Positions 10,835 through 21,152 of a DNA stretch of 21,836 bases are shown here, one piece after another. This stretch comes from a virus. The notes under the pieces were generated by a model. That model was given only the letters and a program-made list of their open reading frames with translations. It was not told where the DNA came from and did no database searches. The stretch is taken from positions 1 through 21,836 of IMG/VR virus record IMGVR_UViG_3300022837_000112, one strand, 5' to 3'. The position numbers and the translations under genes were made by a program. Numbering within the stretch: position 1 is the first letter of the stretch; every line of letters begins with the position of its first letter.

Positions 10835-11243
10835 TAAAGAACTGTTTGATAAGTATGACAAGATGGGACGAGACATAGTCAAATCCTTTATTGGTCAATG
10901 GGGATTGATTGCTGAAGACAACCCTGATAGATACGGAGTTGATCTGCTCCTGTATGCTGACGGTGAGTTGAAGGGGTGTGCTGAAGTTGAGGTACGAAAC
11001 TCTTGGAAGACTGTTGAGTTTCCTTACGAAGATCTTAACGTACCATACCGCAAGAAGAAGCTATTAGAGAATGATATGGAGACGTTCTTCTTCTCCATCA
11101 ATGCTGATGGCACTGCTCTGTTCTTCTGCAAGGCTGATGATGTCCTGTCCTCTGAGGTGAAAGAAAGCCGCAACAAGTATGTATATAAAGGGGAACATTT
11201 TTATAAAGTCCCTCTTGATAAGCTAACTCATATAGTTCTTTAA
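10815..11243 (+). CDS. putative PD-(D/E)XK-type nuclease
   Basis: This 142-residue protein has an N-terminal helix (FDKELFDKYDKMGRD), then NPDRYGVDLLLYADGELKG with D43, then CAEVEVRNSW with E57 and E59, then FPYEDLNVPYRKKKLLEN. The layout of strand, Asp, strand, E-x-[EK], followed by a basic RKKK helix, is that of small PD-(D/E)XK fold phage endonucleases. The position normally held by Lys is Glu59 here, so activity is uncertain. The likely role is processing replication intermediates or cutting host DNA. It is the last + strand gene, and its stop overlaps the stop of the opposing gene. Confidence 0.5.
   Translation: MQNKRFDKELFDKYDKMGRDIVKSFIGQWGLIAEDNPDRYGVDLLLYADGELKGCAEVEVRNSWKTVEFPYEDLNVPYRKKKLLENDMETFFFSINADGTALFFCKADDVLSSEVKESRNKYVYKGEHFYKVPLDKLTHIVL
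11240..11243. other. convergent junction of the two genome arms (overlapping stop codons)
   Basis: The palindrome TTAA supplies TAA on both strands: + strand stop at 11241-11243 and - strand stop at 11240-11242. The two long transcription units therefore meet with a 4-bp overlap. I see no intrinsic terminator on either strand within about 100 bases. Confidence 0.9.
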
Positions 11244-12859
11244 CTGCGCCTACTAGCCAACCCACCCTTAGCCAACTTAGAAGCTGCTTCTCTGATGGCT
11301 TTGGTGGCTGGTACTGTATTGTCTGCCTTGCGGATCTCTTCCAAGTTATCTGCAATCTTACGCAGCAACGTAGCCCTCTCCACAGATCCTTGCTTTTCCA
11401 ATACGTCTGCCATATTCCTCAATGGAATAGGGTACAAAGGTGAGCCAGCCACTCTCGCTGTGTACTGATGTCCCATACCTGTCTTTGTTGACGTTATCTG
11501 TGAAGCAGCGGCGTAGGACTGAAACAATTCACGTATAGCTTTGTATGAATTATTAGTGGTAATTATCTGCTGCTTCTCTGGAAGGGCTTTAAATTTTTCA
11601 GTGTTACTAACTAAGGCTGCAGAATCGTTATACATCTTAATTGCTTCTTGACGCTTCTCACTGATAGGTTTATAGACATCAAGCTTTCCTGCAACAACTT
11701 TTTCTGCTTTATTAACCATCAACTTATCCGCTTCCACAAACGCATCTTCTGTTTCGTTCATAGCACCTGACCGTGGTATAGACAAAGCACGGGTTGACTT
11801 AGGATCTCCACTAATGGTACGAACAATAACATCTAAGTCTTGATTATCGTAAGCTGTGGCTGGCATGTTGACACGGCTAAATAAGTAATCAGCGTATGGC
11901 ATCTCTGTAGAAACAAAAGCAGATGGATCTCGGCCACCAAAAGAACCTGTATTAAACGGCAGGTTTAGATCTTTAGTAAAAGAAGGTGCAGCTATATTTA
12001 GCTCTGAGTGACTGAAAGATCCTCGTTGTGGTTTAGCAAAGCCCTGTTGACTCAGTGTATCCGCTCTATTAGAGTTACCGTGGAATAGTTGTTGCGGAGG
12101 TGTGCTTTTATATTTAAGACGCAGACGGTCCAAAGCCTTCTGATTCTTTTTAGCAAGCACTGTAAATAAAGATTTGTCTTTAGCTTTAGATGGGTCAGCT
12201 TCTCTACCGTTTAACATTCTAAAGTCACCCTGTGTTACACCTACAACAGAATCTTCAACACCGTCCATCATTAACTTAGGGAAACGATCTGTCCTTATCT
12301 CACGTATCTGTTCAATCATATCATTACGATCAGCAAGATTACTAACTGTTTTTAGCATTCCTTTGACCGCCTTGTCTGACACGATTACAACAGGCTCTTC
12401 AGCCAACGGCTGCATCAATCCTTTAGGTGCTGGTGGTTCTTCTTGCTGTGACACCACCTTAGAGAAGTCGTAGTTGCCTTCTTCATCTACAAAGTCATAC
12501 ACACTACCAGCGCCGGGGTAAGGTTCTGCGTCTACGTATTTACCTAAGTGTGTGAACACAGTGTTGTCATACTTCTCAGGATAGTTTTTCTTTAAGAAGT
12601 CCATCGTAGAGGCACCCTCAAACTCTAAAGCCTTGGCCTCTGCTGCCTGCACTTCTTCTGGTGCATACTTAGCCAGCCCCATAGGTTGTGGTGCTGCCTC
12701 CGGCATAGCCTTAGCTACAGGGAAAGCTTCTTCTGTTTGCTTTGCTAGTGTAGGCGTAGCTTCTAACATGTCAGCACCTACATCAGCAATACCTTGGATA
12801 GCTTTCTTAGTTGGCTGACTAGACAGTGCTTTGGTTAAAAGTTTATTAACAATACCCAT
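11240..12859 (-). CDS. 539-residue late protein with a possible ADP-ribosyltransferase-like segment
   Basis: This is the last gene of the leftward arm. Its ATG overlaps the previous stop as TAATG, with AGGTGA upstream. Residues 1-160 are Ala/Pro/Glu-rich and probably disordered. Residues about 256-380 contain LFHGNSNRADTLSQQGF, then FGGRDPSAFVSTEMPYADYLF, then NETEDAFVEADKL. A His-Gly near a strand end (H260), a later S-T-x(4)-A-x-Y block (Y325) and acidic candidates (E369, E371, E377) are the order of features in H-Y-E ADP-ribosyltransferases. The match is by eye and low confidence. The C-terminus is helical and basic, ending AKGGLASRRS. Its position beside an apparent internal virion protein suggests a virion or ejected protein. 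It could equally be an unrelated structural protein. Confidence 0.7.
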   Translation of the reverse strand: MGIVNKLLTKALSSQPTKKAIQGIADVGADMLEATPTLAKQTEEAFPVAKAMPEAAPQPMGLAKYAPEEVQAAEAKALEFEGASTMDFLKKNYPEKYDNTVFTHLGKYVDAEPYPGAGSVYDFVDEEGNYDFSKVVSQQEEPPAPKGLMQPLAEEPVVIVSDKAVKGMLKTVSNLADRNDMIEQIREIRTDRFPKLMMDGVEDSVVGVTQGDFRMLNGREADPSKAKDKSLFTVLAKKNQKALDRLRLKYKSTPPQQLFHGNSNRADTLSQQGFAKPQRGSFSHSELNIAAPSFTKDLNLPFNTGSFGGRDPSAFVSTEMPYADYLFSRVNMPATAYDNQDLDVIVRTISGDPKSTRALSIPRSGAMNETEDAFVEADKLMVNKAEKVVAGKLDVYKPISEKRQEAIKMYNDSAALVSNTEKFKALPEKQQIITTNNSYKAIRELFQSYAAASQITSTKTGMGHQYTARVAGSPLYPIPLRNMADVLEKQGSVERATLLRKIADNLEEIRKADNTVPATKAIREAASKLAKGGLASRRS

Positions 12860-15800
12860 TATAATTCACCTGCTTTTAAATCTTGTAGTATCATTTTGTA
12901 ATCGTCAAGCTCATCATACGCACCTGCTTCTTCTAAAGAAACACCGTTGATTTCTTTATACCTGTTGTTGATAACCTTACGGGAATCAGAGGGTAGACGA
13001 TTAAACTGCATCTTATAATATTTTACAACATCCTTATCTGCCAGCTCATCCAACAACCCACTCTTAGCAAACTTAACAATATCTCTAATGGCTTGTCCAA
13101 TTACAATTCTTTTCTCTGGTGTGCTGAGTAATTGGTAATCAGGGTCAGTTAATATCTCTCTCATCTCTGGTAATATTTCTTTGTTGGCTGCACGTACAAG
13201 ACTGTTATCAAAGTCTTTCATACCTGATGAAGCACCATACAAAGCGTAAGGACTCAGACCCAGTTTAGTTATTTCTTTTTCTTCAGGAGACTTATTAGGA
13301 ATTTGACGTACACCGATAAGCCTGTTAAATATCTCACCTTCTCTGTAGATTGCATCATTCTCTTTCAAACGTGGAGCAGCTTCTGGTAACATCTCTTTAA
13401 GGATTGGCAGCTTATTCATCACACGTTTTGTGGCTGCTTCTGCGCCCAGCTCATACCATGTACCATCTTCGCTAAGAACGTTAGGGTCTCTAACAATTGT
13501 ACCGTCTTCGCTAAACATATCTATAGTGTCATACAACTGCTTAAGAACAAATGGTTGTGTGAAGCGTCCGCCAAAATCACCAAGCACTTTACCAACATTT
13601 ACAGCTACTTTATCAGCTTCTTTCTCTGATGAAAAGGAAACAATCAGCTGATCTAGGAAAGTGTTCTGCGACCCTGCTGGTAGTTTTATACCAATGATAG
13701 TCTGTAACATCTCAGCCGTCTTTGCCGTATCTCCGTTACGTAACTTAACAATAAAATCAGCAACAGCAAAATAAGGAGCAAGAGGAAACAACGCCCTGAT
13801 GTCAGTAGTACCACCCTCAGTAACCTCTGCAGTAAACCAGTCTTGATCCTGTCTAGTCTCACGGTATTTTATAGCAGCGTACACAGCACCCACACCCACA
13901 AAACCTTGTGTCATTTTAGTGTTGCGTTCTCTTCTTATTAGCTGAGATTTAGCCATGTCTCCTGCTTTTTCAGCTGCATCAATAAGAGCATTGTCCCTAC
14001 TGAAACTACCAGCAACTCCTAACGGGCTGTACCTGTATTGGAATGCCATAGCGTTTGCCATAAAGCGAGGGAAAGGAATGACCAAAGAAGAACCCGGGAA
14101 TTGCTCAATAGCTCTAATGATAGACGAAGCGCCACTTTCAAATACACCTTCTATACTCTTGTCTGTACCCTTACGAGACTTAGGCATGTATGAAAAGGTT
14201 GCTTTCAAAGAATCATCAACTGCTCTTTTAATCACAGCAGAAGGAACAACCTTATTCTTACCTAAGAAGTCTCCGTATAAGTCCATACCTTGATCTCGCA
14301 ACTGCTTCTCAATAGAAGATGTGAAGACAGCCCTACGAAACAAACCATCAACAGCTACGTTCAGCGAATTAGCCCAGCGACCAATCTTAGATATCTCTTC
14401 GTTACCTGTCTCTTGTAAAGCAGAGAACAAAGTTTCCCTGAGCGTAGGGTTAAATTTTAAGATATCATCAGCGGCTTCTGCAGCCAGTGTCCTGCCTTCT
14501 GTTGTTGCTATCTTTGTCCACACATCAACAGCGTCGCTGAAAGAATCAGCAACAATCTTCTTAGCTCTTTCCTGTCCCTTACCCGCTACAGCATCACGTA
14601 CACCCACACCTGTGGCGTATACGATACCCTCCATCATGCTGACAGCGCTTCTAACTGACAGGCCGACTGAGGTACCAATAAGGTTTCGGCTCAGTGTATC
14701 AATACCAGATGTAATCCAAACTTTACCCTCACGTTCTATGCGTGTAACGAAGGAAGAAAACTTACTCAGAGCGCTGGTATACTCTTCATCTTTACTGTAC
14801 AAAGCATCAAATTGTTTTTCAAACTTTGGACTCACACCTCTAATTTGATTCATCCACTTACCTGTCTGGCTTAGTGAGTTCAGAATCTTACCTGCTTCAG
14901 ATGTTGAGCTAACAAACATAGCAGCATACTGCTCTTTAGTTACACCCAGCTGTGCTAGTCCTGATTCAATAATTGTTCCGTCAATAGCATCAGTGTTAGC
15001 AATGATCCTGCCTATAGCACTCATTGCTGATTCATTATCTTTACGCATAAACTGCGTATCAGTCTCCATAATCTTGAATGCTGCTTGCGCTGTCAGCCTA
15101 ACAAAGTCTGTCTTTACTTTTGCATCTGTGATAACACCAGCAGGGTCTAACTCTTCTAAGATAGATTTACCATATACCTTCATGTAAGACTCAACCACAG
15201 AATCCATGTTCTCAGTAAGAGGATCAACCATTGCCGTCTCTAGCTTTGTTGCAGGCTCAGCGATAGTCTTTGCCACCTTTGTGCTACCCTCTTCAATTGC
15301 TTTAGATAACTGTCCTATATATTTAGAGGGGTCTAAGCTGACTGCCTTGTAAGCAGCTGCGCCACCCAGTGCAGCGGTAACAGCGCCAACTGCGCCGATA
15401 AGACCGAAGCTCATAGATGAAGGCTCTTCACCCAAAGCAGTGTCTACAGCTTGTTCCAGCTTCTGTGATGTAGCAGCAGATGCCACACCAACCAAGCCTT
15501 CTGTAACCGCACCGATAGCTGCTGACTTCTTAGCAACAGACTTAAGGCCAAGCTTTGCTGCCTGTGTAGTGGCTGCGCTTGAAGCAATTCGTGCGGCACC
15601 AACAGTAGCTGCCTTACCCACACCAAAGCCTAGGTATGTTGTAGGGTCTGTGACAATAGCTTTTAAGATATCTAGGTAAGGACTGATGCCGCCTTGACCA
15701 CCTTCTTCATAGAAGCTGGCGGTGTTAGAGTATACTTTCCTAGCTAGAGAAGCCGTAGCTGCATCAGCAGGGTCAGCGTTCTTAATGTAAGAAAGCTCAG

Positions 15801-16191
15801 CCACCGTGCCGAAAGCTGCGTTAAAGTCAGTGAAGCGCTGGTCTGCTAAGTATTCATCAACAAAGTCTTCTTTGTCATCAGTAGCAGGGTCGTATACTTT
15901 ATTGCGTCTGATCTTCTGTGAGTCCACGATAACACTAAACAGATCATCATTAGCAGACAAGTCTTTAACAGAGAACTGCTTAGAGAAATCAAAGTCAAAT
16001 GAAGGCGCTGGTTTAGTAGGTACATTAACAGCAGAAGGTGTAGGTTCTTTTTTAGCAGTTGACAAGTATGCATCAGGATCAAAAGAACTAGAAGAAACTG
16101 CAGTATTTTCTGATATATATTTATCAGGATTAAAATCAGCAGTAACTATGTTTTTTTCTTTTGCAAGATATTCATCAGGATTAAATGCCAT
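12859..16191 (-). CDS. large internal/ejected virion protein candidate (1110 residues)
   Basis: This is the longest gene in the window, placed where podoviruses carry their large internal core proteins (compare T7 gp16). The N-terminus has three copies of F-[N/D]-P-D-x-Y-[L/I] at residues 3, 20 and 37, exactly 17 apart. Residues about 188-285 are Ala/Gly-rich and hydrophobic, including SFGLIGAVGAVTAALGGAAA at 261-280, which could insert in a membrane during DNA entry. The remaining 800 residues are mostly helical with no enzymatic motif that I can recognise; no lytic transglycosylase signature was found. Its ATG follows the upstream stop by one base, and its TAA overlaps the start of the downstream gene. 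Function as an ejection protein is inferred from size, position and composition. Confidence 0.85.
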   Translation of the reverse strand: MAFNPDEYLAKEKNIVTADFNPDKYISENTAVSSSSFDPDAYLSTAKKEPTPSAVNVPTKPAPSFDFDFSKQFSVKDLSANDDLFSVIVDSQKIRRNKVYDPATDDKEDFVDEYLADQRFTDFNAAFGTVAELSYIKNADPADAATASLARKVYSNTASFYEEGGQGGISPYLDILKAIVTDPTTYLGFGVGKAATVGAARIASSAATTQAAKLGLKSVAKKSAAIGAVTEGLVGVASAATSQKLEQAVDTALGEEPSSMSFGLIGAVGAVTAALGGAAAYKAVSLDPSKYIGQLSKAIEEGSTKVAKTIAEPATKLETAMVDPLTENMDSVVESYMKVYGKSILEELDPAGVITDAKVKTDFVRLTAQAAFKIMETDTQFMRKDNESAMSAIGRIIANTDAIDGTIIESGLAQLGVTKEQYAAMFVSSTSEAGKILNSLSQTGKWMNQIRGVSPKFEKQFDALYSKDEEYTSALSKFSSFVTRIEREGKVWITSGIDTLSRNLIGTSVGLSVRSAVSMMEGIVYATGVGVRDAVAGKGQERAKKIVADSFSDAVDVWTKIATTEGRTLAAEAADDILKFNPTLRETLFSALQETGNEEISKIGRWANSLNVAVDGLFRRAVFTSSIEKQLRDQGMDLYGDFLGKNKVVPSAVIKRAVDDSLKATFSYMPKSRKGTDKSIEGVFESGASSIIRAIEQFPGSSLVIPFPRFMANAMAFQYRYSPLGVAGSFSRDNALIDAAEKAGDMAKSQLIRRERNTKMTQGFVGVGAVYAAIKYRETRQDQDWFTAEVTEGGTTDIRALFPLAPYFAVADFIVKLRNGDTAKTAEMLQTIIGIKLPAGSQNTFLDQLIVSFSSEKEADKVAVNVGKVLGDFGGRFTQPFVLKQLYDTIDMFSEDGTIVRDPNVLSEDGTWYELGAEAATKRVMNKLPILKEMLPEAAPRLKENDAIYREGEIFNRLIGVRQIPNKSPEEKEITKLGLSPYALYGASSGMKDFDNSLVRAANKEILPEMREILTDPDYQLLSTPEKRIVIGQAIRDIVKFAKSGLLDELADKDVVKYYKMQFNRLPSDSRKVINNRYKEINGVSLEEAGAYDELDDYKMILQDLKAGEL
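16060..16185 (-). repeat. three 17-residue-spaced F-[N/D]-P-D-x-Y-[L/I] motifs
   Basis: FNPDEYLA, FNPDKYIS and FDPDAYLS occur at residues 3, 20 and 37 of the 1110-residue protein, with divergent polar linkers of equal length. They are likely short linear binding motifs, possibly for docking in the virion. Confidence 0.85.
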
Positions 16192-16192
16192 C

Positions 16193-17569
16193 TTATTTTA
16201 GTCCGGGGTATTTACGGTTAATAGTATCATTGATGCCTGCTGCTCTAGGATCTGTAGAGTTTGCTGTTGCCCATGCCTTAGCTGCCTTGTCTTCAGCACT
16301 CATACCAACTGAAGCACCGCCTACTTGGGCAGGCTTAGAAGCAGTTGGTGCTTTAATATATTGCTTACCATTAACAACAGTTAAATCAATACCTTGAGCT
16401 GATAGCTCGGCAACTAACTTCTGATCAGCGGGGGCTTTAAACATACCGTTCTCATCTACAATAGAACCGATAAGTAGGATACGTGCCGCTGCATTAACTT
16501 TAGTACCTTGTAACATTGCTAAAACCTCTGGAGATCCCTCTGGTAGCTTTACACCGTTAACTACAAATACATCCGCACCTCTAGCGTTCTTAGAGGAAGG
16601 TATCATAGCTAGGTCATTCCTTACAGCGGATGTAATAATCCCAGTTAAGTCTAATGGTTGTCCTAAACTAAAAGATCTCTGCGCCTGTGCTGCCAATAGC
16701 TGAGCTTGCCTTTCCCTCTTACCATCGTTAAGAAGAAAGTTATCAGCAAAAGCATTATCTTCAGCAGAGAATTCTGTAGGACGGGATTTAATATTGAGAG
16801 CCTTAAAGCGATTTGCAGTAAAGATTGCTGCGTGGTCTGTATCGCCTGAAGCTTTATCAAACTTTTCCATGTCTTTAGCAAAGGCTTCTATTTTTACCAC
16901 GACAGCCTTCCTTTTCACAGGGTCGTCTGATGAATCAGTATACTCTTTAAGTAAGATCTCTTGATTCTCTGCGGCACTCTTAGGTAGCTCTAAAGCTGCT
17001 TCGTTCAAGCTCGCTGTAGGAGTAAGCATAGGCTTATCAGCTTGTTGTTCAAACGCCATCAACTGATCAGAGGTCAAGCCCACACTACCAGCTAATTTGT
17101 CTAATTGACGCTGCTGTCCTTTAGGACTAATACCAAAGAAAGAACTTTCTTCTAATTTAGCTGAGACAGGAGCAGGTTGTTTAGTGGTGGCTGCTTGTAC
17201 CCAGTCAGAATAATTCTGTGCTGAAGCACCCTCTTGCTTCTTAACAATGAAGTCACGTAACGTCTTCTTCATTGGATTGCCTGCAGCTAACACAGTCTTG
17301 TATGAAGATAGGAATACATTGCTTGAGTCAGAGCCAATAGCAATGCGCTCTTCTTCAGTTAGGTCAGCTTGATAAGAAGTGGCTTCAGAGTCACGTTTCT
17401 TAATCTCTTCCTTAAGGGCAGCAGTCTGCTCTTGATACATCTGATAATTAATGTAAGCATTCTTAGTTTTGTTAGCTAAGGATACTTTAGTTGTTTCACG
17501 TTCTTCGTCAAACTTATCGCTAACAGCTTCGAGGGCACCAGTCAGAAATGATTTAAGTTTAAAGCTCAT
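16193..17569 (-). CDS. helical virion-associated protein candidate (458 residues)
   Basis: This soluble, highly helical protein has an N-terminal half with long charged and Gln-rich stretches suited to coiled coils (for example TKVSLANKTKNAYINYQMYQ, then ALKEEIKKRDSE), a Pro/Ala linker near residues 130-140, and a C-terminal third with alternating strands. It ends AWATANSTDPRAAGINDTI followed by a short tail. This kind of terminus, K-A-W-x-x-x-N-x-x-D-P-R-A, recurs in phage virion proteins in my recollection, but I cannot name the family. The upstream AGAGGAAA site and the 4-bp overlap with the previous stop support the ATG at 17569. Its place between small structural-type genes and the 1110-residue protein suggests an internal or neck component. 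Confidence 0.75.
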   Translation of the reverse strand: MSFKLKSFLTGALEAVSDKFDEERETTKVSLANKTKNAYINYQMYQEQTAALKEEIKKRDSEATSYQADLTEEERIAIGSDSSNVFLSSYKTVLAAGNPMKKTLRDFIVKKQEGASAQNYSDWVQAATTKQPAPVSAKLEESSFFGISPKGQQRQLDKLAGSVGLTSDQLMAFEQQADKPMLTPTASLNEAALELPKSAAENQEILLKEYTDSSDDPVKRKAVVVKIEAFAKDMEKFDKASGDTDHAAIFTANRFKALNIKSRPTEFSAEDNAFADNFLLNDGKRERQAQLLAAQAQRSFSLGQPLDLTGIITSAVRNDLAMIPSSKNARGADVFVVNGVKLPEGSPEVLAMLQGTKVNAAARILLIGSIVDENGMFKAPADQKLVAELSAQGIDLTVVNGKQYIKAPTASKPAQVGGASVGMSAEDKAAKAWATANSTDPRAAGINDTINRKYPGLK

Positions 17570-18051
17570 TCTTTATTTCCTCTGGACATCAGTCCCTTAG
17601 GTTGTTCAACGACAGGCTCTTCATCAGTCTTACGCATCTTATTAGCCGCAGTAACTTCTGAGATAGCAGACTTAACGATATCTTCATCCACTGTAGTCAT
17701 CTGATCACGGTCTTCTTTTGTTATAACGAAACCGACATCGTTTAACTCTGCTAATGTTATGATAAGCTCAACGACAACAGGCGTTACAAGCACTGCTGTG
17801 TCTGGGGAATGTATCCCGTTCATCATCTCAATCTTTGTCAAAGCTTCGGCTAACTCATACACAGGTACATCTTCTTTTAAACCCATCATGATTGATTCAA
17901 TAACAGCCCCTTCAGAAAGTCTTTCTGCATAGTGATCAACAACTTCAGAAAGCTTTGTTAGTTTAGGTGCCTGCTCCCAAGGACGGCTACTAGGTCCTGT
18001 CGTTAAAGACATACCCGGTACGGGAGACATTAATAATTTATCATTTACCAC
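17566..18051 (-). CDS. conserved phage virion-arm protein (161 residues), GTG start
   Basis: The start is GTG at 18051, supported by AGAGGAG (18059-18065 on the - strand) 7 bases upstream. The in-frame ATG at 18030, which would begin MSPVPGMSLT, has no such site. The N-terminus reads PVPGMSLTTGPSSRPWEQAP and the middle has a run of helices (VIESIMMGLKEDVPVYELAE, then GIHSPDTAVLVTPVVVELI). I recall similar uncharacterised proteins in marine podoviruses and myoviruses encoded among structural genes. The acidic-to-basic tail ends PKGLMSRGNKE. No enzymatic motif is seen. Function unknown; a virion role is inferred from context. Confidence 0.75.
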   Translation of the reverse strand: MVNDKLLMSPVPGMSLTTGPSSRPWEQAPKLTKLSEVVDHYAERLSEGAVIESIMMGLKEDVPVYELAEALTKIEMMNGIHSPDTAVLVTPVVVELIITLAELNDVGFVITKEDRDQMTTVDEDIVKSAISEVTAANKMRKTDEEPVVEQPKGLMSRGNKE

Positions 18052-18253
18052 GAATCAGCTCCTCTTTTTGTTTTCTGATTGCAGAAATATAATCAGCAAT
18101 CTCTGAAGTAATGTCACCACCTGCAGCCCGTGCAGGACCAGAAGGCATAGCGCTCCTAGCCAACAACCCTGTGCCTGTTAGTGAGGGACGCTTAGTTACT
18201 TTAGTAGAAGCAATCTTTTCTTCCACTTTTTTCATTGTATTGTAGTATGTCAT
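18041..18253 (-). CDS. small basic virion-arm protein (70 residues)
   Basis: This 70-residue basic protein has its ATG at 18253 behind AAAGGA. It has an N-terminal helix (MKKVEEKIASTKVTKR), a Gly/Ser/Pro-rich middle (SLTGTGLLARSAMPSGPARA) and a C-terminal helix (ITSEIADYISAIRKQKEEL). It lies 10 bases after the repeat-protein stop and overlaps the next gene by 11 bases. No family is recognised. It may be a minor structural protein or assembly factor, judged only by context. Confidence 0.65.
   Translation of the reverse strand: MTYYNTMKKVEEKIASTKVTKRPSLTGTGLLARSAMPSGPARAAGGDITSEIADYISAIRKQKEELIRGK
18059..18065 (-). promoter_or_regulatory. ribosome binding site for the GTG start at 18051
   Basis: AGAGGAG on the - strand, 7 bases before GTG, inside the 3' end of the preceding gene. 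It favours the GTG over the downstream ATG at 18030. Confidence 0.65.
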
Positions 18254-18263
18254 TTGTTATCCT

Positions 18264-21152
18264 TTAGAAGATCCTACTAAGTGCCCATTTAGTAGCAATG
18301 CTAGCCACAGCAGAGTAGATGCCACCACTAGAACTAGCGTCAGCCTGTGCTTCCGCAGCTTTTAAACTACCTGTAGAAGTAATCTGTTGAAGAAGAACTT
18401 GCGTTGCCCTATCCTCATCCTTCTCCCAGCTGCTCCAAGCCATTTCAACTTGATCTCGGTACAGCTGTATCTGGTTATTATAGTCTGCTAATGTCATCTG
18501 TTGCATCTGCTGTGCATTCAAATAGTTAGAAGCATTGGTGGCAGCAGTGTTAGCTGTGCTGATATCCCTACGCCATTGAGCATTTGATTGATCAATAACC
18601 AAACGTTGGTTTGCGTTGAACTGATCTCTTGCATTCTGCTGCTCAACATTAAACTTAGAAACAGAGTTGGATTGGTCAGCGTTAAATTGACCCAGAGCAT
18701 TTTGCTGTGCTGAATTAAACTGACTAACTTGAGAAGACAAACCTGCCATAAACTGATTCGTTTGATTATCAGAGGTGGCATTAAACTGGCTTGCTGCATT
18801 AGCAGCTGCTGTGTCTGACAGCATAGCCTGTGTCATCTGCTGAGCCTTAAACAAAGATGTCTGCTGCTCGTTATTTAAGTTCTGTAAATCCAAAGCAAGA
18901 AAAGCCTGTGAATTCTGAGCAAGTGCTTTCTGTCTATTGTCTAAGTTAGCCATGTCTATTGTTGCAAACGTGGCAGCATTAGCTAATACATTGGCCTGCT
19001 GATTACTGAGATCAGTTAAATTAATCTGCTGAACAAACTGTGCATTAGCAAGAGCAGATTGCTGTTCTGCTGTAAAATTAACATTAGCCACCTCCGCAAT
19101 ACGTGCAGCGTTAGTGATGTTTACTTGTTGTTTATTAGTAAGCTCTTGTCCCTTCAATGCTGATTCAATTTGTGCGTTAGCTAAAGCAGTTTGTTGTTTA
19201 TTAGATAGGTTAGTAACCTCAAGCTGCATCGCATTCGTGGTGTTGAACAGTCTTGTTTGTTGATCGTTAGTGAGATTAAGTCTACGTTCATCTAATACAG
19301 AACTAACGTTAAACAAGGCAGTTTGTTGCTTGTTAGACAACACTAGGTTTTCCAAAGCCGCTCTTGCTTGAAAGTCTTGAATAAAAGATTGTTGTTGATT
19401 GGTAGCATTAATCTGTGCTGCATCAAAATTCTGAGTAGATTGCAGCATACGTGATTGCTGATCATTACTTAGTTCTTGTCCTGTAAGAGCAGCTCTAACT
19501 TGTAAGTTAGATAGTGCAGTTTGCTGACGATTACTTAAGTTTGCCAAGTCAACTTGTAAGTTCTCAGCTGACCGTTGCATAGCTGATTGCTGTGAGTTAC
19601 TTAGGTTAATGTTGTTTACTTCAGCGTAACGAGCAGCATTGGTCAACGCAACTTGTGTCTTAACATCTAAGTTCTTCTCTTGCATTGCTGCTTTAAGTTG
19701 GGCATTTGCTAATACAACAGATTGCTGGTTAGAGAGGCTTTGTCCTTGTAAAGCAAAAGCATTGGAACTATTCTGCAACACTGCTTGTTGACGAGCAGTA
19801 AGATTAGATAGCTCAAGGTTTTGCATGGCAGCAGCGTTGGCTAACGAAACTTGTTGACGGTTGCTTAAGTTGGTTAACCCCATCTGTGCAAACGTCTGAG
19901 CATCAGCAGCTGCGATAGGAGTTGCGGCCTCCATAGCAGCTTGAACAATAGCAGCACCCGCCATACTACTGGCACTAATACCACGAGAAGACATAGCAGC
20001 ATTGGCTTGGCGAAGAGCACCAGCAGCCCAAGCAGGTGTGCCGTTATTAAACTGCTGCATCAGCTTATCCATCTGACCAGCAACAGTGGCTGCAGCCTCA
20101 ACGGTACCAGTCTGTGCTGCTGCCAGAGCCTGACTAAAGTTACCTTGCTGTGCTGTAGCAATGGCAGCGCTGTTGAGCATGTCCATTGTTGCTGCAATTG
20201 CCTGAACAGGTTCTATAAGTTGTAAGTTCTCACGAGCAACATCAACTAACTCTTGTTGAGTTACAGCACGTTGTTGAGCAACAGCTGTTGAGGTGGCGTT
20301 TGTTTGAGCAGAGGTTGCTGCTGGTATTTCTGACGCTTTTGCCGCTGACAAAACAGCAGGGGCATCCATTGTTGCAAACCTAGTTTCAGGGAGCGTATAA
20401 CTAGTAGCGGCCTGAGCCTCTGGTGTTCCTGCTAACTGAGCAGCTGACGCTGCAAAGTCTTTATCGGTAGTGGCTGCTTGTACTTGAGTGGCTCCACCTA
20501 CATCAGCAACAGTGGCGGCGTTAGCCAGCTGGTTAGGTGTTGCTTCTAAACCCACTGGTGCCTGTACAACAGCAGCATTAGGCGCAGTTGGTGCAGTAGC
20601 TAAAGCATTATTGGATACACTACCTTGTGCTGCCTGTGATAAAGCGCCTTCTGATACAGTGCCAGTGGCAGCACCAACACCTTGTAAAGCTGCTGTCAGT
20701 GCAGGCGTTGCCGCTGCTGTAGACATGTTAGCTGATGCTACATTTGTAGGTGTAGCTGCATTAGCAACATTAGAAACCTGTGAAGCTGTCCCCTGTGACG
20801 CTGCTGCTGAGGCAGCTTGTGCAGCCATCAACTGATTCTGTTGTTCTTGTAATTGAGCTGCTGTTAGTATAGGTGTTCCTTGTGGACGTGGTACACCAGT
20901 GGCTGTGGTTTGATAAGCAGCGGCATCTTCTGGAGATGTGGCTGAAGATTGAGCAACACCACCAACAGCAAACTTCTTCCGTGTCAATCCACCCTTAGCC
21001 ATGCGTTGCACGTACTTGTCTGTGATGATGCTATACTTAGCAGCCAGCGCAGGTGATGATTTGATGTATTGATCAAAGCCCTGCATAGGACCATCGTAGC
21101 CAAGCTTACGAGCAAGTATTTCTTTTTGTCCTGAAGTGAATTCTTTTTTCAT
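18264..21152 (-). CDS. 962-residue Ala/Gln-rich repeat virion protein
   Basis: Four zones are visible. Residues 1-60 form a basic domain (KEFTSGQKEILARKLGYDG, then MAKGGLTRKKFAVGG). Residues about 70-420 are Ala/Thr/Gln/Pro low complexity. Residues 429-780 are sixteen exact-length 22-residue repeats with no insertion or deletion, consensus L-S-N-x-Q-Q-x-x-L-x-N followed by A-x-x-x-x-A-L-x-x-x-x. Residues 789-865 are seven 11-residue repeats starting Q-F-N. The C-terminus turns to Tyr/Trp-bearing helices and ends with a short hydrophobic segment (YSAVASIATKWALSRIF). The 11/22 periodicity points to hendecad coiled coil, a long rod or core-like assembly. There is no receptor-binding or enzyme domain that I can see. 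It is likely an internal or tail structural protein, placed between the M15/HExxH genes and the other virion genes. Confidence 0.85.
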   Translation of the reverse strand: MKKEFTSGQKEILARKLGYDGPMQGFDQYIKSSPALAAKYSIITDKYVQRMAKGGLTRKKFAVGGVAQSSATSPEDAAAYQTTATGVPRPQGTPILTAAQLQEQQNQLMAAQAASAAASQGTASQVSNVANAATPTNVASANMSTAAATPALTAALQGVGAATGTVSEGALSQAAQGSVSNNALATAPTAPNAAVVQAPVGLEATPNQLANAATVADVGGATQVQAATTDKDFAASAAQLAGTPEAQAATSYTLPETRFATMDAPAVLSAAKASEIPAATSAQTNATSTAVAQQRAVTQQELVDVARENLQLIEPVQAIAATMDMLNSAAIATAQQGNFSQALAAAQTGTVEAAATVAGQMDKLMQQFNNGTPAWAAGALRQANAAMSSRGISASSMAGAAIVQAAMEAATPIAAADAQTFAQMGLTNLSNRQQVSLANAAAMQNLELSNLTARQQAVLQNSSNAFALQGQSLSNQQSVVLANAQLKAAMQEKNLDVKTQVALTNAARYAEVNNINLSNSQQSAMQRSAENLQVDLANLSNRQQTALSNLQVRAALTGQELSNDQQSRMLQSTQNFDAAQINATNQQQSFIQDFQARAALENLVLSNKQQTALFNVSSVLDERRLNLTNDQQTRLFNTTNAMQLEVTNLSNKQQTALANAQIESALKGQELTNKQQVNITNAARIAEVANVNFTAEQQSALANAQFVQQINLTDLSNQQANVLANAATFATIDMANLDNRQKALAQNSQAFLALDLQNLNNEQQTSLFKAQQMTQAMLSDTAAANAASQFNATSDNQTNQFMAGLSSQVSQFNSAQQNALGQFNADQSNSVSKFNVEQQNARDQFNANQRLVIDQSNAQWRRDISTANTAATNASNYLNAQQMQQMTLADYNNQIQLYRDQVEMAWSSWEKDEDRATQVLLQQITSTGSLKAAEAQADASSSGGIYSAVASIATKWALSRIF
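18558..18788 (-). repeat. seven tandem 11-residue repeats (33 bp units)
   Basis: Residues 789-865 of the 962-residue protein. The units begin QFNATSDNQTN, QFMAGLSSQVS, QFNSAQQNALG, QFNADQSNSVS, KFNVEQQNARD, QFNANQRLVID and QSNAQWRRDIS. Length is constant; the pattern is Q-F-N-x-x-Q-x-N. Confidence 0.9.
18813..19868 (-). repeat. sixteen tandem 22-residue repeats (66 bp units)
   Basis: Residues 429-780 of the 962-residue protein divide exactly into sixteen 22-residue units (16 x 66 = 1056 bp). Nearly every unit starts [L/F/A]-[S/T/D/N]-[N/A]-x-Q-Q and has Asn at or near position 11. The DNA units have diverged, so selection acts on the protein period. Confidence 0.92.

Follow-up and report, generated by a model that had tools for sequence, protein, structure and literature searches.

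In the window, the whole 21,836-nucleotide stretch of viral DNA analysed here (IMG/VR record IMGVR_UViG_3300022837_000112), we identified a cysteine-free protein of 962 residues (18264..21152, minus strand) that contains a single continuous array of 44 hendecads, extending from residue 407 to about residue 890, and whose relatives differ in array length by steps of exactly 110 residues. The explanation that we consider somewhat better than evenly probable is that its gene is the first of a DNA-ejection (envelope-penetration) cassette with an extendable array in a podovirus of the HMO-2011 type.

Results

A single array of 22- and 11-residue units

Open reading frame and repeat analysis, cysteine counts and comparison with relatives divide the protein into five segments, all on the minus strand. 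The N-terminal module (residues 1-65; 20958..21152), recognised by sequence comparison through the motif F..QQ..IARKLGY.GPM..F..Y...MAKGG, is predicted to form helices (pLDDT about 75) and is also found in HMO-2011. A conserved pre-array domain (residues 300-406; 19935..20255), from which a profile was built, carries the motif TPAWAAGA...RGxxASSMA and is followed by seventeen 22-residue units (residues 407-780; 18813..19934) and ten 11-residue units in phase with them (residues 781-890; 18483..18812). According to sequence analysis, the C-terminal segment (residues 891-962; 18264..18482) ends in a Gly/Ala/hydrophobic stretch. The original prediction described an exact-register array of sixteen 22-residue and seven 11-residue units without indels; both were recovered (residues 429-780 and 789-865, mapping exactly to 19868-18558), and our count adds a degenerate 22-residue unit (residues 407-428). 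The 8 residues between the 22-mers and the 11-mers keep the phase when read in the 22-residue frame, and the 11-mers retain the (F/A)-N-A signature of positions 10-12 of the 22-mers, so that the two parts are one array and not two.

Self-similarity of the protein exceeded that of shuffled sequences at lags 11, 22, 33, 44 and 55 only (z = 13.5 at 22 and 13.4 at 44). The units had been described as rich in Asn and Gln and poor in charge, in agreement with the composition of residues 429-788 (16% Ala, 16% Gln, 14% Asn and 13% charged residues), where Pro is absent. The proposed decay of the repeats in DNA is likewise borne out by an identity of 0.40 at a lag of 66 nucleotides and 0.33 at third codon positions, and Tandem Repeats Finder called no array in the array DNA. 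Neither Pfam and PHROGs searches of the gene block nor a PDB sequence search with the repeat-protein profile gave a match for the repeat protein. It is a putative virion protein on the basis of gene position.

Array length changes in steps of 110 residues

Of the 26 phage records matched by tblastn, most belong to Roseobacter CRP phages, pelagiphages and Puniceispirillum phage HMO-2011. IMG/VR scans with the pre-array domain as profile yielded no fewer than 493-557 relatives each, and 80 were retained every time. Alteromonas, Arsukibacterium and Rheinheimera genomes encode distant relatives of this domain, and 44-residue repeats come after it in the Alteromonas relative. A gene for a GNAT acetyltransferase lies after the distant repeat-protein relative in Alteromonas and Rheinheimera (L260:8475-8933 and L264:6891-7352).

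We measured array length as the distance between two anchors, M407 (pre-array) and W860 (post-array), which were placed by profile alignment and lie outside the counted 22-mers. This distance equals 2 modulo 11 in 113 of 114 non-redundant relatives, where chance would give 1 in 11. The anchors are separated by 21 (n = 35), 31 (n = 11), 41 (n = 29, window included), 51 (n = 9), 61 (n = 7, plus L068) or 71 (n = 1) hendecads, that is, by a step of 10 hendecads (110 residues, or 5 × 22) within this long class; a short class has 11-20 hendecads, and two pelagiphages have 29. The sole relative out of register, L068 (array residues 554-1225), falls two residues below 61 hendecads, for which a true deletion, a sequencing error and an alignment slip are candidate causes. 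The copy-number variation that the original prediction expected among relatives is thus present (21 to 71 hendecads in the long class), and the steps of exactly 110 residues are a feature beyond that expectation. Random indels inside units, which would have spoken against a strictly kept length, were not seen: besides the 113 relatives in register, the 28 relatives whose arrays are as long as that of the window can be aligned gap-free over 523 residues at 53-76% identity.

On a tree derived from the flanking domains, with the array excluded, we counted at least 23 changes between the states of this length ladder (18 on an earlier tree from a redundant set of relatives). Units 7-11 of the window are present three times in tandem in one relative (L007), and in the relative with 71 hendecads (L154) neighbouring 110-residue modules are 95% identical in amino acid sequence and 86% identical in DNA, which indicates that length change is recent and ongoing. 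All cultured relatives (from Roseobacter, SAR116, Vibrio, Aeromonas, Rhizobium and SAR11) have 14-29 hendecads; the class with 31-71 hendecads consists, among the relatives found, only of uncultured phages. The 110-residue quantum may have a structural origin, and one step could conceivably correspond to one superhelical turn; a neutral alternative would be unequal recombination among those copies that are most alike.

Predicted fold of the array

An AlphaFold2 model of the array from 29 gapless sequences (mean pLDDT 70.5, pTM 0.54) has a core, at about residues 480-690 of the window protein, with pLDDT 85-91, in which every 22-mer folds into a helix, 12-17 residues long, that begins at position 3 of the unit and leads into a loop of about 6 residues. 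The full-length model (mean pLDDT 49.7) has the same helix-loop pattern at lower confidence. For the 11-mer part an unbroken helix is predicted, at a pLDDT near 50. Helices, and not the beta-solenoid or disorder that would have contradicted the original prediction, are therefore what the models give. The statistics of 1115 distinct units support the helix-turn reading independently of the AlphaFold2 model: a residue typical of helix N-caps (S, T, N or D) occupies position 2 in 96% of units but position 13, its counterpart in the second hendecad, in only 27%, which makes the two hendecads of one unit non-equivalent; position 9 is bulky and hydrophobic in 98%; Gly is enriched at position 20; and the units contain no Pro, compared to 5.6% Pro upstream of the array.

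Of the proposed hendecad coiled coil, the 11-residue periodicity without indels stands, whereas the continuous helix does not, given that in the model, as in the N-cap spacing, the helix is broken in every 22-mer. The sixteen 22-mers are thus most likely not a coiled-coil rod, the model pointing to an array that is helical and rigidly spaced, and only the 11-mer region is still a candidate for a hendecad helix. Because each 22-mer would consist of a helix and a loop, with one N-cap per 22 residues, a rigid rod is unlikely in the predicted folded state. The hydrophobic periodicity of the array has no main peak at 98 degrees, and there are two hydrophobic faces, with Gln and Asn/charged faces between them. 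A module of five helices is odd-numbered, which would argue against strict up-down alternation of helices throughout a module.

Foldseek gave no significant match for the full-length model, which is too weak for such a search (mean pLDDT 49.7), and no significant PDB match for the array model, whose significant matches in the viral library were homologues only. The best PDB fold matches were designed helical repeats, at non-significant levels (best E = 0.06 and 0.13, TM-score below 0.25). The array resembles alpha-helical repeat solenoids and designed repeats in its short helix and loop of fixed length, but differs in having one helix per 22 residues and no Pro; judged from the model, no solved structure seems to share the fold of the 22-residue single-helix repeat.

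A conserved gene block that closes the structural operon

The repeat protein is the first member of a block in which it is followed by a small or lytic protein, a protein of about 165 residues, one of 300-630 residues and one of about 1100 residues. This block lies at the end of the structural operon and is conserved in about 100 non-redundant loci and 16 named phages. In the window (all minus strand), gene order identifies the second gene as one that encodes 70 residues (18041..18253). The third encodes 161 residues (17566..18051) with the N-terminal motif P.PG.SLT...RPW..PP; sequence comparison shows that the motif is kept in the distant CHOED and phiM6, and no family model covers the protein. 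The fourth gene (458 residues; 16193..17569) has no family match. The fifth (1110 residues; 12859..16191) has two Gly/Ala-rich hydrophobic segments near residues 223-280, and its product is a candidate inner-membrane ejection protein. The sixth gene, whose cysteine-free product of 539 residues (11240..12859) has no family match, overlaps the end of the fifth and is missing from HMO-2011 at the corresponding place; it is possibly an extra member of the cassette. The window also has DNA_pol_A, DnaB_C/Toprim, class II RNR, MazG and synteny with HMO-2011, and the shared replication module and structural gene order identify its phage, at the level of sequence, as a podovirus of the HMO-2011 type.

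The best functional clue in the gene order is the second slot. In 44 relatives it encodes a protein of 240-785 residues, many of which have peptidoglycan-lytic or peptidoglycan-binding domains: PG_binding_1 (9), Phage_lysozyme2 (6), PG_binding_3 (6), Phage_lysozyme (4), SLT (3), Hydrolase_2 (3), Pesticin (2), LysM (1) and Transglycosylas (1), where the Pfam counts are per family and not per protein and so do not give a share of the 44. Such domains are also seen in this slot in CRP-13, CRP-603 and CRP-207. The lytic families are mutually unrelated, the gene having been replaced repeatedly. The M15 endolysin of the window is separate from the second-slot gene. Peptidoglycan-binding domains occur in the repeat protein itself in CRP-235 (LysM) and in one further relative (PASTA).

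The C-termini of the repeat-protein family have been exchanged between a plain type, a Peptidase_S74 type and the W/Y-rich type of HMO-2011 gp25 (L012:14505-16625, minus strand), whose C-terminal extension (FCWVAREVYGEG...) includes its only cysteine and is not present in the window protein. An Ala/Gly hydrophobic C-terminal stretch was found in 75 of 109 complete relatives. Pfam detected no Peptidase_S74 in the repeat protein of the window. Further genes were noted beside the repeat gene in two pelagiphages: in HTVC115P (L020:4219-4668) a HlyC-type lysine acyltransferase (PF02794, 1e-15) follows directly after it, and the annotation of HTVC033P (L029:163-2277) places two 2OG-Fe(II) oxygenases, together with a putative ferrochelatase, immediately before it within the structural region.

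The six adjacent window proteins (11240-21152, minus strand) contain no cysteine in 3300 residues, compared to 8-11 in each large replication protein; cysteine content is normal in the genes flanking the block and in the replication module. The block is also cysteine-free in CRP-1, ctYwJ313 and CHOED and has two cysteines in HMO-2011. T7 gp15 and gp16 and P22 gp7, gp20 and gp16 have no cysteine either, and a near absence of cysteine may be a general marker of ejection cassettes, although low cysteine is not specific to them, the tail fibres CRP-1 gp43 and HMO-2011 gp43 being cysteine-free too.

Discussion

Several observations lead us to favour an ejection cassette with an extendable array: the conserved block, the lytic-enzyme slot, the LysM and PASTA domains, the near absence of cysteine, the predicted helix-turn fold, the quantised modules and the hydrophobic segments of the 1110-residue protein, a feature also of gp16-type proteins (PMC8954989). 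Short-tailed phages must bring their own periplasmic conduit (PMC8954989, PMC11440229), the size of ejection proteins differs widely between phages (PMC8954989), and another pelagiphage has a glycoside hydrolase beside three internal virion proteins (PMC10504331). The block resembles the entry proteins T7 gp14/15/16 and P22 gp7/20/16, a cysteine-poor set that ends the virion genes with the largest last (PMC8954989). Gene size likewise rises along the late operon here, and the window has the extra 539-residue gene after the largest. A peptidoglycan hydrolase is joined to such sets in T7-like members, as it is to the block in relatives, where the window has the 70-residue version; the difference is that the hydrolase here is a separate and often replaced gene. 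Probabilities in hhalign comparisons with these six T7 and P22 proteins were all below 1%, a weak test with single-sequence targets. We know of no such quantised helix-turn array in T7 or P22 ejection proteins. The closest known systems are the homologues HMO-2011 gp25 and CRP-1 gp35, which have the pre-array domain, the array, the post-array motif and the gene block in common with the window but only 21 hendecads between the anchors, compared to 41, and are annotated as hypothetical proteins; we found no described function of HMO-2011 gp25 in the literature, nor virion proteomics for HMO-2011, CRP phages or MQM1.

We infer that the repeat protein would be located in the virion, ejected and assembled into an oligomer with a lumen, and that the cassette would work like T7 gp14-16 or P22 gp7/20/16 without detectable homology to them. 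The array would consist of 22-residue helix-turn units joined into a modular chain, with a long helical (hendecad) segment after them, and would serve as an extendable spacer or wall component between the N-terminal and pre-array domains and the C-terminal part, and lineages would gain or lose whole 110-residue (five-helix) modules that leave packing and register undisturbed. Packed in the head, the proteins would exit via the short tail before the DNA; in the periplasm, which is hostile to cysteine, the repeat protein would refold with the 161-, 458- and 1110-residue proteins into a bridge from the outer to the inner membrane, and the enzyme of the downstream gene, where present, would open the peptidoglycan. 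The repeat protein would thus be the adjustable component of the cassette. Among the roles offered by the original prediction, gene context favours the ejected entry protein, whereas a rigid rod through the 22-mers does not agree with the AlphaFold2 model.

The observation that fits a fibre better than an ejected protein is the Peptidase_S74 domain that ends the repeat protein in at least five relatives (L003, CRP-3, CRP-235, CRP-738 and others). Peptidase_S74 is a chaperone of trimeric tailspikes, and the protein could be a trimeric external appendage (tail fibre, whisker or tail-tip stalk) with the array as its shaft and S74, in the relatives that have it, as the trimerisation chaperone that is cleaved off. 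S74/ICA domains function as homotrimers (PMC6972908, PMC8326128), the N-terminal regions of relatives are long and variable and contain DUF4214 or RTX repeats in individual cases, fibres commonly vary in length, some tail fibres of these phages share the lack of cysteine, and the single-chain AlphaFold2 model (pTM 0.54) is silent on the oligomer. We nevertheless regard an appendage as unlikely, since S74 is missing from most relatives, tail-fibre genes form a separate cluster upstream of the block, most complete relatives have the Ala/Gly C-terminal stretch, the predicted helix-turn chain is neither a coiled coil nor a beta-helix, and the lytic-enzyme slot and the conservation of the block agree better with an entry protein. 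Somewhat less probable still is a protein that stays inside the head as a scaffold, core or genome organiser, with repeats that bind DNA or the portal: its Asn/Gln-rich helices could touch DNA, the gene sits in the structural module and all homologues are without known function, but recurrent peptidoglycan-active domains have no role within the head, and the block is found at the operon end, whereas scaffold genes of P22-like phages adjoin the coat gene.

The strict 11-residue register, the absence of Pro from all distinct units and the alternation of two hydrophobic faces with Gln and Asn/charged ones would also suit a continuous hendecad coiled-coil rod or tube with a lumen lined by Asn, Gln and Arg, as in phiX174 H, which consists of Gln-rich hendecads with a 4-7 spacing of amide residues and inward-facing Gln, and acts as a tube for DNA (PMC7354561). 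We claim no homology between the two proteins: H forms decameric continuous helices of 121 residues, whereas the window family has predicted helix-turn units and an array up to five times longer. We give such a tube little credence because the model interrupts the helix in each 22-mer in its best-predicted part (pLDDT 85-91), N-caps recur per 22 and not per 11 residues, the main hydrophobic peak at 98 degrees is lacking, and the long-class step is 10 hendecads, not 1 or 2. Loops free of Pro are odd for a helix-turn repeat and leave room for a continuous-helix state, and it is conceivable, if rather improbable, that compact helix-turn units straighten after ejection into continuous 11/3 helices that form a Gln/Asn-lined tube like that of phiX174 H. 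Such a spring-loaded extension would explain the Pro-free loops, the helix plus loop of exactly two hendecads and the single phase across 22-mers and 11-mers, and the 110-residue module would then be the length quantum of the conduit.

Under the favoured ejection-cassette explanation, the repeat protein of these marine phages probably belongs to the machinery that moves viral DNA across the bacterial envelope, and its array with fixed 110-residue steps resembles a molecular extender whose length can be adjusted. If the protein is a conduit or spacer, it comes in discrete natural length steps, from 13 to 71 hendecads, and the relatives would therefore be a ready-made set in which to test the idea that an ejection protein gauges the envelope.
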